Assembly (NCBI RefSeq): GCF_041320605.1
Contig: NZ_CP166679.1
Location: 1,984,001 to 2,048,000 of the forward strand
From: Arenibacter antarcticus
GTDB lineage: Bacteria; Bacteroidota; Bacteroidia; Flavobacteriales; Flavobacteriaceae
Length of the DNA stretch: 64,000 bases
Direction of reading: 5' to 3'
Shown here piece by piece: positions 45,308 to 49,763 of the stretch (the stretch's first letter is position 1; each line of letters opens with the position of its first letter). Made by a program: the position numbers and the translations under genes. The notes under the pieces were generated by a model. It saw only the letters and a list, made by a program, of their open reading frames with translations, had not been told where the DNA came from and ran no database searches.

Positions 45308-46624
45308 TTAAATAAATAAACTTAAGATCAATACGCCAATTAGGCCCATTACTCCCACGGTGGTTTCCATTACGGTCCAGGTTCGTAAGGTATCGTTTAC
45401 CGATAGGTTAAAATACTCCTTGAACAACCAAAACCCACTATCGTTTACATGCGAGAGCATAAGGCTTCCCGATCCTATCGCCAATACCATTAGCTCTGCA
45501 CTTGTTCCCGTGGCAGCTACAAGGGGCAATACGATTCCTGCAGTGGTGAGTCCCGCTACGGTAGCAGAGCCTACACAGACCCTTATGACCGTTGCAACCA
45601 TCCAGGCTAAAATTAGGGGAGATAGGGCTGAATCTTTCAATATTTCGGCAATATATTGACTTACCCCACTATCTATAAGTACTTCTTTTAAAGCTCCTGC
45701 CCCTGCAATAATAAGTAATATCATGGTAATCCCAGAGATGCCGCTACTTACCGAGCCCATTATTTCGGGCATTTTTTTTCCCCTGGCCAAGCCTAGGGTG
45801 TAAATGGCGACCAATACTGAGATAAGCATGGCCACTGCCGGGTTCCCTATAAAACCGATGAAGGGCATTATGGGGTTGTCTGCTGGCAGCATCAGATCCG
45901 CAAGGGTAGACAGCATGATTAGGATGATGGGCAGCAAAGCTGTAAAAATACTGGTGGTAATCCCTGGCATTTCCGATTCTTCTAAAATACGGGGATTAAC
46001 AAATTCTTTTAAGGGAGTGGCCTCTATATTCTTTATAGTTCGGGAAAAAAGGGGGCCCGCTACAATGATGGCGGGAATAGCGATAATTATCCCGTACAAG
46101 AGTGTCTTTCCGATGTCGGCATTAAAGGTGGCGGCGATAGCGGTAGGGGCAGGGTGCGGGGGAAGATACCCATGAGTTACGGATAATGCGGCGATCATAG
46201 GAAGTCCTACGTATAATAATGGGAGCTTGGTAGATGCCGCAATGGTAAAGATCAAGGGGATCAGAATTACGAATCCTACGGAGTAGAACATGGGGATACC
46301 CACAATGAAACCAGTCAATACCAAAGCCCATTGTATGTTTTTAATGCCGAATTTGGCAACCAAACGGGTGGTGATCTGTTGTGCGGCGCCGCTATCGGCC
46401 ACCAACTTGCCCAGCATAGCGCCAAGGCCCAAGATCATGACAAGAAAGCCAAGAGTGTTTCCTATCCCGTCCTGAATAGATTGGACCACCGTTTCCAATT
46501 CCATACCCTCGGCAATTCCGACGGCAAGGGAAACAATGATAAAGGCTATAAAGGCGTTGAGTTTAAATCTGGCAATTAATATAAAGAGGAGTAGTATCCC
46601 AAGAATTACGATTAGTAATGGCAT
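45308..46624 (-). CDS. GntP-family permease
   Basis: A 438-residue inner-membrane symporter with about 12 helices. Signatures of the gluconate:H+ symporter (GntP) family include GFLVMILGLGAMLGKLVADSG, VTHGYLPPHPAPTAIA and LSHVNDSGFWLFKEYF. Members carry gluconate, D-serine (DsdX) or related hydroxy acids. Because the next genes encode RidA and a D-amino-acid PLP enzyme, a D-serine- or hydroxy-amino-acid substrate is likely here. It is the first gene of the four-gene run. Confidence 0.93.
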   Translation of the reverse strand: MPLLIVILGILLLFILIARFKLNAFIAFIIVSLAVGIAEGMELETVVQSIQDGIGNTLGFLVMILGLGAMLGKLVADSGAAQQITTRLVAKFGIKNIQWALVLTGFIVGIPMFYSVGFVILIPLIFTIAASTKLPLLYVGLPMIAALSVTHGYLPPHPAPTAIAATFNADIGKTLLYGIIIAIPAIIVAGPLFSRTIKNIEATPLKEFVNPRILEESEMPGITTSIFTALLPIILIMLSTLADLMLPADNPIMPFIGFIGNPAVAMLISVLVAIYTLGLARGKKMPEIMGSVSSGISGITMILLIIAGAGALKEVLIDSGVSQYIAEILKDSALSPLILAWMVATVIRVCVGSATVAGLTTAGIVLPLVAATGTSAELMVLAIGSGSLMLSHVNDSGFWLFKEYFNLSVNDTLRTWTVMETTVGVMGLIGVLILSLFI

Positions 46625-46762
46625 AAGGTTGGTTTATTGGTAGACAAAACTTTATTTCAATAAATATACTATTTATTAGGGTATCTATAATGAGTGCGAT
46701 CTACCTAAGTGCTTTTTAAAGGGAACACATTGATAATGTGTTAATTATATTGTTAAATTAAC

Positions 46763-47089
46763 CGCTCCGCAAAGTCTCACGACTTTGAGGTTATCATCTT
46801 GCTCGTGTAGGACGAGCCTTCTTTTATTTAGTTGAGTTTTTCGTAATGATAGTTCCGCAAACATCGCTCCGCAAAGTCTCACGACTTTGAGGCTATCATC
46901 TTGCTCACGAAGGACGAGCTTTCTTTTATTTAGTTGAGTTTTTCGTAATGGTAGTTCCGCAAAGACCGCTCCGCAAAGTCTCACGACTATGAGGCTATCA
47001 TCTTGCTCACGTAGGACGAACCTTCTTTTATTTAGTTGAGTTTTTCGTAATGGTAGTTCCGCAAAGTCAGGAGACTTTGCGGAGCGTGG
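46763..47089. repeat. Tandem array A: three 102-bp units ending in a REP palindrome
   Basis: Units start at 46763, 46865 and 46967 (each CGCTCCGCAAAGTC...), 102 bases apart, differing at only a few positions. The array ends with a full palindrome CCGCAAAGTC-AGGA-GACTTTGCGG at 47059-47082. Each unit holds a weaker palindrome AAAGTC-TCAC-GACTTT and a block resembling the 5' end of the RAYT gene at 48 kb. Because 102 is divisible by 3, one frame stays open through the array; it is not a gene. Confidence 0.92.
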
Positions 47090-47090
47090 T

Positions 47091-47669
47091 AAAATTGTAA
47101 ATAATGCAAGTTCACTAAAGTATACTAAAGAAATCAAGAAATTGCTTGCAAAGGAATTTCAAGAACCGTCTTATGAGTTTGTTAGACATTTTGCTAATCC
47201 AGTTTATTCCGGCAGATTAACGGAAAAGGTAATGGGCCAATTTTCAGACTTAGTACTTAAAGCTACAAATCAATTTATAAGTGAAAAAGTCAATGACAGA
47301 TTGACTTCGGCCTTGAACAAGGAACATGAAAAATAACATGAAGAGATTCAAGATGAAGAAGAACCACAAAGCAAAGTTGAAACAACCGAAGAGGAATTGG
47401 AAGGATTTCAAATCGTTGTGGCAATCTTAAGGCGTAAACTCCCGAAAGACAGAATTATCCACAGAGACACACAATCTTATTTTGGAATATTACTTGATGA
47501 CAATAACAGAAAGCCACTTTGTCGACTTCATTTGAACGGAGGGAAAAAATATATTAGCTTATTCCACGAAAACAAGAAAGAATCAAAGGAGGCAATTGAA
47601 TCAATCGATGAAATTTACAGATTTGAAAAAGAATTATTAAAAACCGTCCAGAATTACGAATCTGAATAG
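47091..47669 (+). pseudogene. 3' fragment of a restriction-endonuclease-like gene, stop-interrupted
   Basis: One frame runs KIVNNASSLKYTKEIKKLLAKEF from the edge of array A, through SGRLTEKVMGQFSDLV, to a TAA at 47334-47336, then on in the same frame (ETTEEELEGFQIVVAILRRKLP, HRDTQSYFGILLDDNNRKPLCRLH) to 47669. It matches my memory of the C-terminal half of Bacteroidota proteins with an HsdR-N-like nuclease domain (COG4748-like). The N-terminal nuclease half is missing and the frame begins exactly where the repeat palindrome ends. Truncation plus an in-frame stop make it a pseudogene. Confidence 0.7.
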
Positions 47670-47687
47670 GAAAATGATGTCAAACAT

Positions 47688-48116
47688 CGCTCCGGAAAGT
47701 CTCACGACTATGAGGCTCTCATCTTGCTCACGTAGGACGAGCCTTCTTTTATTTAGTTGAGTTTTTCGTAATGATAGTTCCGCAAACATCGCTCCGCAAA
47801 GTCTCACGACTTTGAGGTTATCATCTTGCTCGTGTAGGACGAGCCTTCTTTTATTTAGTTGAGTTTTTCGTAATGGTAGTTCCGCAAAGACCGCTCCGCA
47901 AAGTCTCACGACTTTGAGGCTATCATCTTGCTCACGAAGGACGAGCTTTCTTTTATTTAGTTGAGTTTTTCGTAATGGTAGTTCCGCAAAGACCGCTCCG
48001 CAAAGTCTCACGACTATGAGGCTATCATCTTGCTCACGTAGGACGAACCTTCTTTTATTTAGTTGAGTTTTTCGTAATGGTAGTTCCGCAAAGTCAGGAG
48101 ACTTTGCGGAGCGTGG
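47688..48116. repeat. Tandem array B: four 102-bp units ending in a REP palindrome
   Basis: Units start at 47688, 47790, 47892 and 47994. The third and fourth units are identical to the second and third units of array A as far as I can read, and the second differs from array A's first unit only near its end. The array closes with the same palindrome (48086-48109) and GAGCGTGG as array A. The RAYT stop codon lies 7 bases after the array. Confidence 0.92.
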
Positions 48117-48122
48117 ATCATT

Positions 48123-48722
48123 TTAACATTGATTATAATTTAAAAACGAATATGGTTTTAGAACGTCTGTTACAGGGTTGTCTACTAATTCAACATCGAC
48201 CAAGCCTTTGCTTTCTACATAATTGCTTGCACTTGAATACCTGTATTGACTCGCCCTTTCAACAATTCCTGCTCGAACGGGGTTCATGTGCACATAATTC
48301 AACTTGGACCACATGAATTTGCTAGAATATATTTCTTCTGCATGGTTGCCGTATTGCCAAAACTGATAGTTCTTATTTCGGCTATGTGTTGCTGTAGCTT
48401 TCTTGAAACTATCCAACATCCATTCCCGTCTGCTCTCTGGTTCGTTTTGGATGCTATCCAATATCTTATTTGCGGTATATTTTTTAAAATCGCGAACTAG
48501 ATTGGATAATTTTCCATCATTGGATTGAATGATCATATGTATATGGTTGCTCATAATTACATATCCATATAAGATCAAACCTTTATTTTCTATGCAATAT
48601 TTCAAAGAGTCAATGACTATATCACGATATAATTGCCTTGTAAACACATCTATCCAATCTACTACCGTAGCAGTAATGAAATGTGCTTTTTCTTGCTCGC
48701 GTATGATATAGCCTTCTTTCAT
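48123..48722 (-). mobile_element. REP-associated tyrosine transposase (RAYT)
   Basis: A 199-residue Y1 HUH transposase-like protein of the IS200/TnpA-REP group. The HUH motif is His60-Ile-His62 in VIMSNHIHMII; later come FWQYGNHAEEIYSSKFMWSKLNYVHMNPVRAGIV and YRYSSASNY, typical of RAYTs. It acts on single-stranded REP palindromes. The frame is intact. A 13-bp-stem palindrome stands upstream (48748-48777) and another downstream (48085-48110), the arrangement of a REPtron. The first 12 codons (MKEGYIIREQEK) recur in degenerate form in every 102-bp unit of arrays A and B, with the start ATG changed to ATA. Confidence 0.92.
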
Positions 48723-49025
48723 TTAGTTGAATTTGTCGTAATGCTAGGTTGCGCAAAGTCTCCCGACTTTGCGCAACGGGCATGTTTGTCTATGTAAGTT
48801 AATAAAAATATCTTGAGCATAAAAAATAGGCTGGCTATATCATAAGGTTTTAGAGTCTATAAGCCTTTGGTTATCATGGGTTTATTTTGTAACTTTAAAT
48901 GTATCCCCCTTTACAAATAGAAAGTTTTTTACTTACCCCCGTCGATGGAGAACTTTTAGAGCAATGACCTTGACTCTTCATCTTGCTTGTACGAATTTTT
49001 TTAATCTTCAACTAAAAGATACTCT
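48723..49025. other. Intergenic region between RAYT and slipin genes
   Basis: 303 bases. It begins with the RAYT upstream sequence and REP palindrome; a stretch near 48980 (TCATCTTGCT then T-GTACG) recalls part of the 102-bp unit and could be a decayed copy. No gene is seen. Confidence 0.5.
48748..48777. repeat. REP palindrome upstream of the RAYT gene
   Basis: Perfect 13-bp inverted repeat GTTGCGCAAAGTC/GACTTTGCGCAAC with loop TCCC, 26 bases upstream of the RAYT start. The core CGCAAAGTC is shared with the palindromes of the 102-bp arrays. Confidence 0.88.
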
Positions 49026-49763
49026 ATGGCACCACCGTTCATTTTTACCGTATTACTGATTTTGTTTCTCCTTTCTGGAATTCGAATTGTTTATGAATAC
49101 AAGCGAGCCTTAAAGTTTAGGTTTGGGAAGTATGTAAGAACCCTACAACCGGGTTTTAGGTGGATTATTCCCCTAGTAGAGACCATTCAAGTCGTAGATA
49201 TTCGGGTGATTACCATCAATATTATCTCCCAAGAGGTAATGACGGAAGACAATGTACCCTGTAGTATAGACGGCGTGGTCTTTTTTAGGATAAACAGTCC
49301 GGAAAAAGCCGTTTTGGAAGTAGAGGAATTCCGTTTTGCCATTACCCAATTATCCCAAGCCGCCCTAAGGGATGTCTGCGGAAAAGTGGAGCTAGATACT
49401 ATCTTATCCAAGCGAGAGGAGATGGGGAAAAATATAAAGGGCATTGTGGAGTTGGAAACCAAGGAATGGGGTATAGAAATTATAGATGTCAAGATAAAAG
49501 ACATCCAATTACCCGAAAACATGAAGCGTATGATGGCCAATCAGGCGGAAGCGGAACGCTCTAGAAGGGCCAGAATTATCCTTGCATTGGCTGAGGAGCA
49601 GGCTGCAGGGAAATTATTGGAAGCTGGGAAGCTCATTGATCAATCCCCATCTGCCATAAAGCTGCGACTCTATCAGACCCTTTCCAATATAGCCGCCGAA
49701 AAAAACTCTACCATCATCTTTCCTTTTCCTGAAGAAGTGCTGCCAAGGAATCAAAAAACTTAA
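49026..49763 (+). CDS. Slipin/stomatin-like SPFH protein
   Basis: A 245-residue membrane-anchored band 7 protein. An N-terminal hydrophobic hairpin (residues 3-20) leads to the SPFH domain: VYEYKRALKFRFGKYVRTLQPGFRWIIPLVE, then VVDIRVITINIISQEVMTEDNVPCSIDGVVFFRI, and AEAERSRRARIILALAEEQAAGKL in the C-terminal coiled coil. Slipins oligomerise in the inner membrane and act as scaffolds or with NfeD-like proteases; no NfeD gene is adjacent. It sits just beyond the REP island. Confidence 0.92.
   Translation: MAPPFIFTVLLILFLLSGIRIVYEYKRALKFRFGKYVRTLQPGFRWIIPLVETIQVVDIRVITINIISQEVMTEDNVPCSIDGVVFFRINSPEKAVLEVEEFRFAITQLSQAALRDVCGKVELDTILSKREEMGKNIKGIVELETKEWGIEIIDVKIKDIQLPENMKRMMANQAEAERSRRARIILALAEEQAAGKLLEAGKLIDQSPSAIKLRLYQTLSNIAAEKNSTIIFPFPEEVLPRNQKT

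Follow-up and report, generated by a model that had tools for sequence, protein, structure and literature searches.

Several described systems join a REP-associated tyrosine transposase (RAYT) gene to short palindromic repeats, and they are characterized here as set out in passages of the respective papers. Subclass 2.6, which corresponds to Bertels RAYT group 5, has the motifs NH[LIV]H, WQ and SS, a median histidine-to-tyrosine distance of 82 and the tyrosine motif YIH[QN]NP, and it comes without a GT[AG]G tag (PMC6006769). In the TIRtrons (TIRYT) of Di Nocera et al. 2013 (PMC3733652), a RAYT-like gene lies between inverted TIRs that are unrelated to GTAG, and copies of the TIR occur singly, in dimers or in groups. 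REPINs of P. fluorescens SBW25 form large dispersed populations and also clusters of tandem, near-identical REP-flanked units, some of which are located beside RAYT genes (PMC3116915). The TnpAREP protein of E. coli is reported to cut mainly beside the REP sequence and, in addition, at discrete distant sites (PMC8266576). What these passages do not mention, and the locus described here shows, is that repeat units can include end pieces of the coding sequence of the RAYT itself; the element as such is of a known kind.

The locus lies in a 64,000-nt stretch of the Arenibacter antarcticus genome (the window), a genome of 4.694 Mb in a single contig. By profile search, it is flanked by a GntP permease gene (45308–46624, minus strand) and an SPFH/Band-7 gene (49026–49763, plus strand). 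In the sense of the RAYT gene, the island comprises a 5′ TIR, the RAYT gene, four 102-bp units, a gene fragment and another three 102-bp units. The RAYT gene (48123–48722, minus strand) encodes a transposase of 199 amino acids, and its 5′ TIR (48748–48782, minus strand) has a 13-bp stem, a 4-nt loop and the outer foot CCCGTTGCGC in RAYT sense. Tandem Repeats Finder delimits the four-unit array at 47681–48093 (4.0 copies) and the three-unit array at 46761–47066 (3.0 copies), both on the minus strand; a repeat search gave a spacing of 102 bp throughout both. Each array is closed by the same minus-strand full palindrome, located at 48086–48113 for the four-unit and, by repeat analysis and folding, at 47059–47086 for the three-unit array; on the plus strand, both copies follow a GTAG. 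The initial annotation, made from the letters alone, had described this intact RAYT gene with palindromes on either side and two downstream arrays of three and four units ending in the same palindrome after GTAG, and all its coordinates and counts held up. The two arrays are closely related, with 300 nt of the three-unit array (46763–47062) being 99% identical to 47790–48089 in the four-unit array.

The fragment between the arrays (47091–47663, plus strand) contains about 191 codons, interrupted by an in-frame stop, and represents the C-terminal half of a restriction-like gene of the HSDR_N type of about 355 amino acids (355 in the relative at locus L175). This identity came from scanning the full gene of that relative; the inter-array ORFs, present as two pieces, had given nothing useful against Pfam and NCBIfam. 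No second copy of the fragment was found elsewhere in the genome. In the syntenic locus L159 of genome G001, homology resumes at window position 48783, directly outside the 5′ TIR, which agrees with the use of the same TIR outer edge as in the array joints described below. In this genome and in G010 (L158), the position of the island (window 46675–48783) is occupied by an ORF of about 200 amino acids, which by its motif resembles a PAP2-type phosphatase; a third locus, L171, lacks this ORF.

The product of the RAYT gene matches both PF01797 (30.9 bits, cut-off 23) and NF047646, the profile of REP-associated tyrosine transposases (102.6 bits, cut-off 80), over an open reading frame. It contains the HuH residues H60 and H62 and the tyrosine Y143, which are retained in 74, 75 and 74, respectively, of 75 aligned proteins (the window RAYT, P0001, plus those from the 74 of 80 related loci that are free of stops over the matched stretch). 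By HuH motif, catalytic tyrosine and the Y1_Tnp/REP_Tyr_transpos profiles, the protein thus belongs to the HuH Y1 transposases. Its genome holds one other match to PF01797, which is interrupted by two internal stops, and the window protein used directly as a query found nothing in its own genome besides itself.

Based on the motifs and distances quoted in passages of PMC6006769, rather than on the HMMs of that paper, the window RAYT best fits subclass 2.6. It shares NHIH, WQ, YSSA for the SS motif, a distance of 81 between H62 and Y143 compared with the published median of 82, and relatives in the Bacteroidota; as in that subclass, hairpins without GTAG flank the gene and copies of the hairpin occur elsewhere in the genome. 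We say "best fits" rather than "is" because the tyrosine motif YVHMNP departs from YIH[QN]NP. The related proteins mostly read YIHLNP, with L at the variable position in 57 of 75 and N in five. By most tests, the element would therefore be a RAYT of subclass 2.6/group 5 with TIRs of the TIRtron kind and a differing tyrosine motif. The TIRs themselves differ from those of the TIRtrons, which have the motif GGGGWSAS, whereas here the core is GTCTCC[CT]GAC with GCT in the outer foot. The passages of PMC3733652 considered contain no description of inserts derived from a RAYT, nor do those of PMC6006769 mention units with RAYT coding sequence or tandem arrays of such units.

The window RAYT protein matches 36 of 119 genomes, its own included (E ≤ 0.001), and 80 loci, in Bacteroidota as far as titles tell, were kept out of 142 that encode a relative. 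Of these genes, 43 have a palindrome with the core GTC[TC]C..GAC no more than 160 bp upstream, and 45 have one no more than 110 bp downstream. The nearest upstream palindrome has the same orientation in 39 of 43 loci and the nearest downstream one is inverted in 44 of 45, and from this constancy we conclude that the RAYTs have TIRs. GCT is found in the outer foot of 69 of the 88 related TIRs. Extra palindromes within 1.5 kb of the RAYTs show the same bias (upstream 34 same versus 14 opposite, downstream 24 inverted versus five); since members of an array are not independent, we attach no binomial P value to this excess. The window RAYT is an exception among its relatives in two respects: the loop of its upstream palindrome is inverted relative to most of them, and the palindrome that adjoins its stop codon belongs to the array, being oriented in RAYT sense as the 5′ TIR of an array unit and not as a RAYT 3′ TIR. 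Two further observations concern the surroundings of related genes. At L070 (4600–4660, Arenibacter sp. 6A1), short direct repeats of half a TIR, TTTGCGGAACTAC, come next to the palindrome that lies behind the RAYT, on its far side. Five loci (L082, L085, L098, L115 and L121) carry a second full-length RAYT a few kb away on the same strand, which suggests local duplication.

In RAYT sense, the 102-bp unit consists of half a 5′ TIR, the RAYT leader, a degenerate version of the first 32 nt of the RAYT coding sequence and a TIR of the 3′ type. The first unit of each array opens with the full palindrome and later units with half of it, so that internal joints retain only half of the 5′ TIR. Aligned to the 5′ end of its own RAYT gene, the unit reaches a score of 67 in an alignment of 68 columns (500 shuffles gave at most 25), with about 84% identity to leader and coding start over 68 nt. 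The start codon is lost, ATG being replaced by ATA, and about 11 degenerate codons follow. The 3′ part aligns over 37 columns with the 3′ end of the nearest relative, the RAYT of L070 (83% identity), at a score of 45 compared with 24 for shuffles, although most of this match is the palindrome itself and only about 10 nt of the unit's 3′ leader part lie outside it; with the 5′ region of the L070 RAYT, the unit gave no alignment (21 versus 24 shuffled). Compared with shuffled sequences, two full palindromes fold with z scores of –7.6 and –6.7 and one degenerate unit palindrome with –3.5, and the first unit together with its full palindrome folds end to end into a single long hairpin (z = –4.3; all 200 shuffles folded less well). 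Two inverted REPs folding into one hairpin are the hallmark of a REPIN; the unit with the full terminal palindrome has this structure, and the internal joints have only half of the 5′ TIR.

Because it contains the element's own 5′ leader and coding start together with a 3′-type TIR, the unit can be read as a mini-element that has lost its interior and is lined up in head-to-tail repeats; judged by its sequence, it is derived from the RAYT gene's own element. MITEs of IS elements arise in this way, by internal deletion with both ends kept. The unit resembles them, as its parent's two ends are retained, its interior is deleted and coding remnants are held in common, and L118 offers a parallel: an isolated mini-element there joins a 5′ TIR, leader and some 25 nt of coding sequence to the 3′ TIR, the same plan as the window unit. 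Unlike MITEs, the window units are mostly tandem and local, have half TIRs at their joints and were not found as a dispersed family. They are closer to one another than to the RAYT and thus are not recent products of this RAYT copy.

A search for the full-length unit in its own genome and 118 relatives, with at most seven candidates scored per genome among relatives, gave matches at seven places, all in the window, so the unit does not constitute a dispersed 102-bp family, a candidate we rejected. The palindrome has spread further. The 20-mer core with up to two mismatches occurs at 22 places in the own genome, compared with none for the reversed control, nine of them in the window and 13 outside; three of the 13 look unrelated by eye and one was added from another search, leaving 11 palindromes at five sites outside the window. 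Palindrome copies elsewhere, as anticipated by the initial annotation, therefore exist, though they are few. Four of the six sites fall within 136 kb (simulated P = 0.0013, for a span picked after the sites were seen). One of the sites outside the window, L029, contains a row of three units of about 137–140 bp, in each of which a palindrome precedes the leader and some 22 codons of a RAYT other than that of the window; the match to the window RAYT is 75% over 110 nt (E = 1.2e-12). Another, L030, holds two 106-bp units and one unit of the L029 kind.

Within the genus, we counted core matches with up to one mismatch in 18 genomes. The five genomes with a close RAYT have 24, 5, 16, 5 and 6 palindromes and the 13 without one have 2, 0, 4, 2, 5, 21, 2, 11, 1, 5, 1, 0 and 6 (one-sided Mann–Whitney p = 0.02), some of the latter carrying more distant RAYTs. 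The control for the 24 matches in the own genome gave two. The genome with 21 palindromes, G006, has no RAYT at E ≤ 0.001, so that its repeats are either orphans or its RAYT was missed in the draft assembly. The expectation that copy number tracks RAYT presence is thus borne out only loosely, given the excess on the one hand and G006 on the other. The initial annotation had named as evidence against its reading a unit confined to this locus, no palindromes elsewhere and copy numbers unrelated to the RAYT; the first of these is what we found, whereas palindromes do occur elsewhere and their number is weakly related to RAYT presence.

Tandem Repeats Finder combined with BLAST against the 80 RAYTs and the window RAYT revealed repeat units with RAYT coding sequence, as arrays or duplications, at seven of the 80 loci. 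The units contain 5′ coding ends at L072, L077 and L081, and 3′ ends at L084, L118, L145 and L146. At L146 (4479–5664, Chitinophagaceae bacterium LY-5), nine tandem 132-bp copies each include a palindrome and the final ~50 nt of a RAYT gene. The other 73 loci have no Tandem Repeats Finder array with RAYT coding sequence; where arrays occur there, they contain flanking non-coding sequence only or nothing recognizable. We also compared the flanks of extra palindromes with RAYT genes, using 80 of 90 palindromes whose inner flank is clear of a RAYT (10 dropped). At a score of at least 40, inner flanks match the RAYT 5′ region in 14 cases, the 3′ region in 28 and the middle in none, and outer flanks in one, 11 and none, compared with none in 20-fold shuffles at score 40; these counts overstate the number of independent stubs because several are complete extra RAYTs (for example at L085, L115 and L121) or neighboring TIRs (L102). 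In six REPIN-like inverted pairs (at L119, L125 and L126), no match to a RAYT stood out clearly (highest score 26, shuffle maxima 25–28), and a general origin of REPIN pairs as RAYT remnants is thus unsupported in these six pairs, which come from loci that have a canonical TIR.

Inspection of the joints by eye revealed a common pattern. At 5′ stubs, the joint retains the outer foot with its C run (three joints at L077, two at L029, and also at L081 and L072), and its position on the gene side ranges between about 26 and 145 nt into the coding sequence. At L084 and L118, the 3′ joints are the mirror image, with a G run. In several genera, one side of the joint is located 0–5 nt outside the stem at the conserved C run. 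In the window, a 3′ TIR is joined to half a 5′ TIR; the same type of joint, made with another palindrome, is present at L145. Nested insertion of a whole element as the source of stubs is unsupported: the remaining part of the gene was not seen in the available flanks beside L077 or L084; at L072, the contig ends just past the RAYT. In open-licence PMC papers, we found no description of REP arrays with RAYT coding ends.

Based on the observed homology of the unit to the RAYT 5′ end, the orientation rule of TIRs in the relatives and the RAYT-end arrays found elsewhere in several genera, we propose that the island is a RAYT element of a Bacteroidota type whose units are probably tandem, internally deleted derivatives, with RAYT action at the TIR edge starting the arrays and host recombination extending them. 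One copy of the element would have lost its interior, after which terminal segments would have been duplicated in tandem, each joint having one constant side, at the outer foot of the TIR, and one variable side inside the gene. Two routes could lead to this duplication: in one, the TIR edge is nicked by the RAYT and joined by it to a secondary site of a sister copy; in the other, replication halts at this edge and changes template. A complete head-to-tail joint would produce a palindrome longer than 60 nt; since such a sequence is expected to be unstable in bacteria, complete joints would tend to be lost and half-TIR joints would remain. Unequal recombination could then even out the array and copy it across the gene fragment. 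A second cut by the RAYT, as the first of the two routes would require, is made plausible by the distant cuts of E. coli TnpAREP, as reported in the passages of PMC8266576 considered here.

The initial annotation had instead taken the system to be REPtron-like, with GTAG beside the palindrome as the recognition pattern known from E. coli TnpAREP. What stands of this reading is that a RAYT is accompanied by its own palindromes and that palindromes occur elsewhere in the genome. A classic E. coli-type system, in which the units would be large REPINs recognized via GTAG and spread by the RAYT, is most improbable. It draws on the GTAG that precedes the full palindromes and on GGTAG beside a full or half palindrome in five of the seven units (GATAG in the other two), on the long hairpin formed by unit plus full palindrome, and on the tandem REPIN arrays near RAYTs of SBW25, as described in passages of PMC3116915. 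Those REPINs, however, form large dispersed populations, compared with one locus here and units that include the 5′ end of the transposase gene; the full unit is not dispersed, and 24 core matches in 4.69 Mb, gathered in few clusters, do not amount to a high-copy dispersed REP family. Nor is GT[AG]G a feature of the palindrome foot: GTAG lies directly beside the stem in only four (outer side) and one (inner side) of the 88 related TIRs and anywhere within 25 nt in five and three. In the own genome, it accompanies four of 21 listed palindromes, is missing from the upstream TIR of the RAYT itself and is found on neither side of the palindrome at window position 47693. Three of the five GTAG-contact residues are not kept in the window RAYT, as judged from a weak alignment, and the published subclass 2.6 lacks the tag (passages of PMC6006769). 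We therefore reject GTAG as the tag of this RAYT family and do not regard the system as a GTAG REPtron.

Replication slippage or template switching at hairpins could also have produced the arrays with the RAYT uninvolved, by stalling of the fork at the hairpin base, duplication of RAYT-relic ends and subsequent unequal recombination. We consider this possible, though rather unlikely. It would account for arrays that persist where a RAYT is absent or distant, as at the L029 site and in G006 with its 21 palindromes, and for the close similarity of units within an array; a fork stalled at the base of the hairpin would likewise hold one side of the joint constant. The position of that side at the C run in several genera is, however, explained at least as well by a transposase edge, and the larger number of palindromes in genomes of the genus with a RAYT also argues against a RAYT-independent process. 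That the arrays are kept for a function, either as decoy sites titrating the RAYT or as RNA hairpins acting on neighboring transcripts, seems very unlikely: the units are well preserved among themselves and offer one palindrome every 102 bp, but their start codon and palindromes are degenerate, the GntP–SPFH region of the three relatives' loci L158, L159 and L171 is free of the array, and we found no conservation of arrays at fixed places.

Our proposal that internally deleted derivatives were piled up by RAYT action and host recombination has a stronger version, in which the Bacteroidota RAYT itself builds arrays from its own gene by cutting the outer edge of the TIR and joining it to a sloppy site inside a sister copy, and in which the resulting stub arrays, as they erode, would be the birthplace of REPs and REPINs. 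We put this forward as a speculative and, at present, unlikely extension.

The origin of REPs and REPINs from transposases is inferred and not seen because the repeats in well-studied genomes keep no trace of the parent gene. Some of the units described here carry 5′ or 3′ coding ends of RAYTs, so that the parent can be recognized, and breakpoints and joints can be located, in one genus after another and set side by side. Should the joints prove to depend on the RAYT, the origin of such repeats and their amplification would become testable in one simple assay, and stub arrays, if made by the RAYT, would be a readable record of the ends of the parent gene. The tandem piling-up of its own truncated ends is a little-described habit of a known kind of element, and the arrays in the window illustrate a way in which a transposase may give rise to small palindromic repeats.
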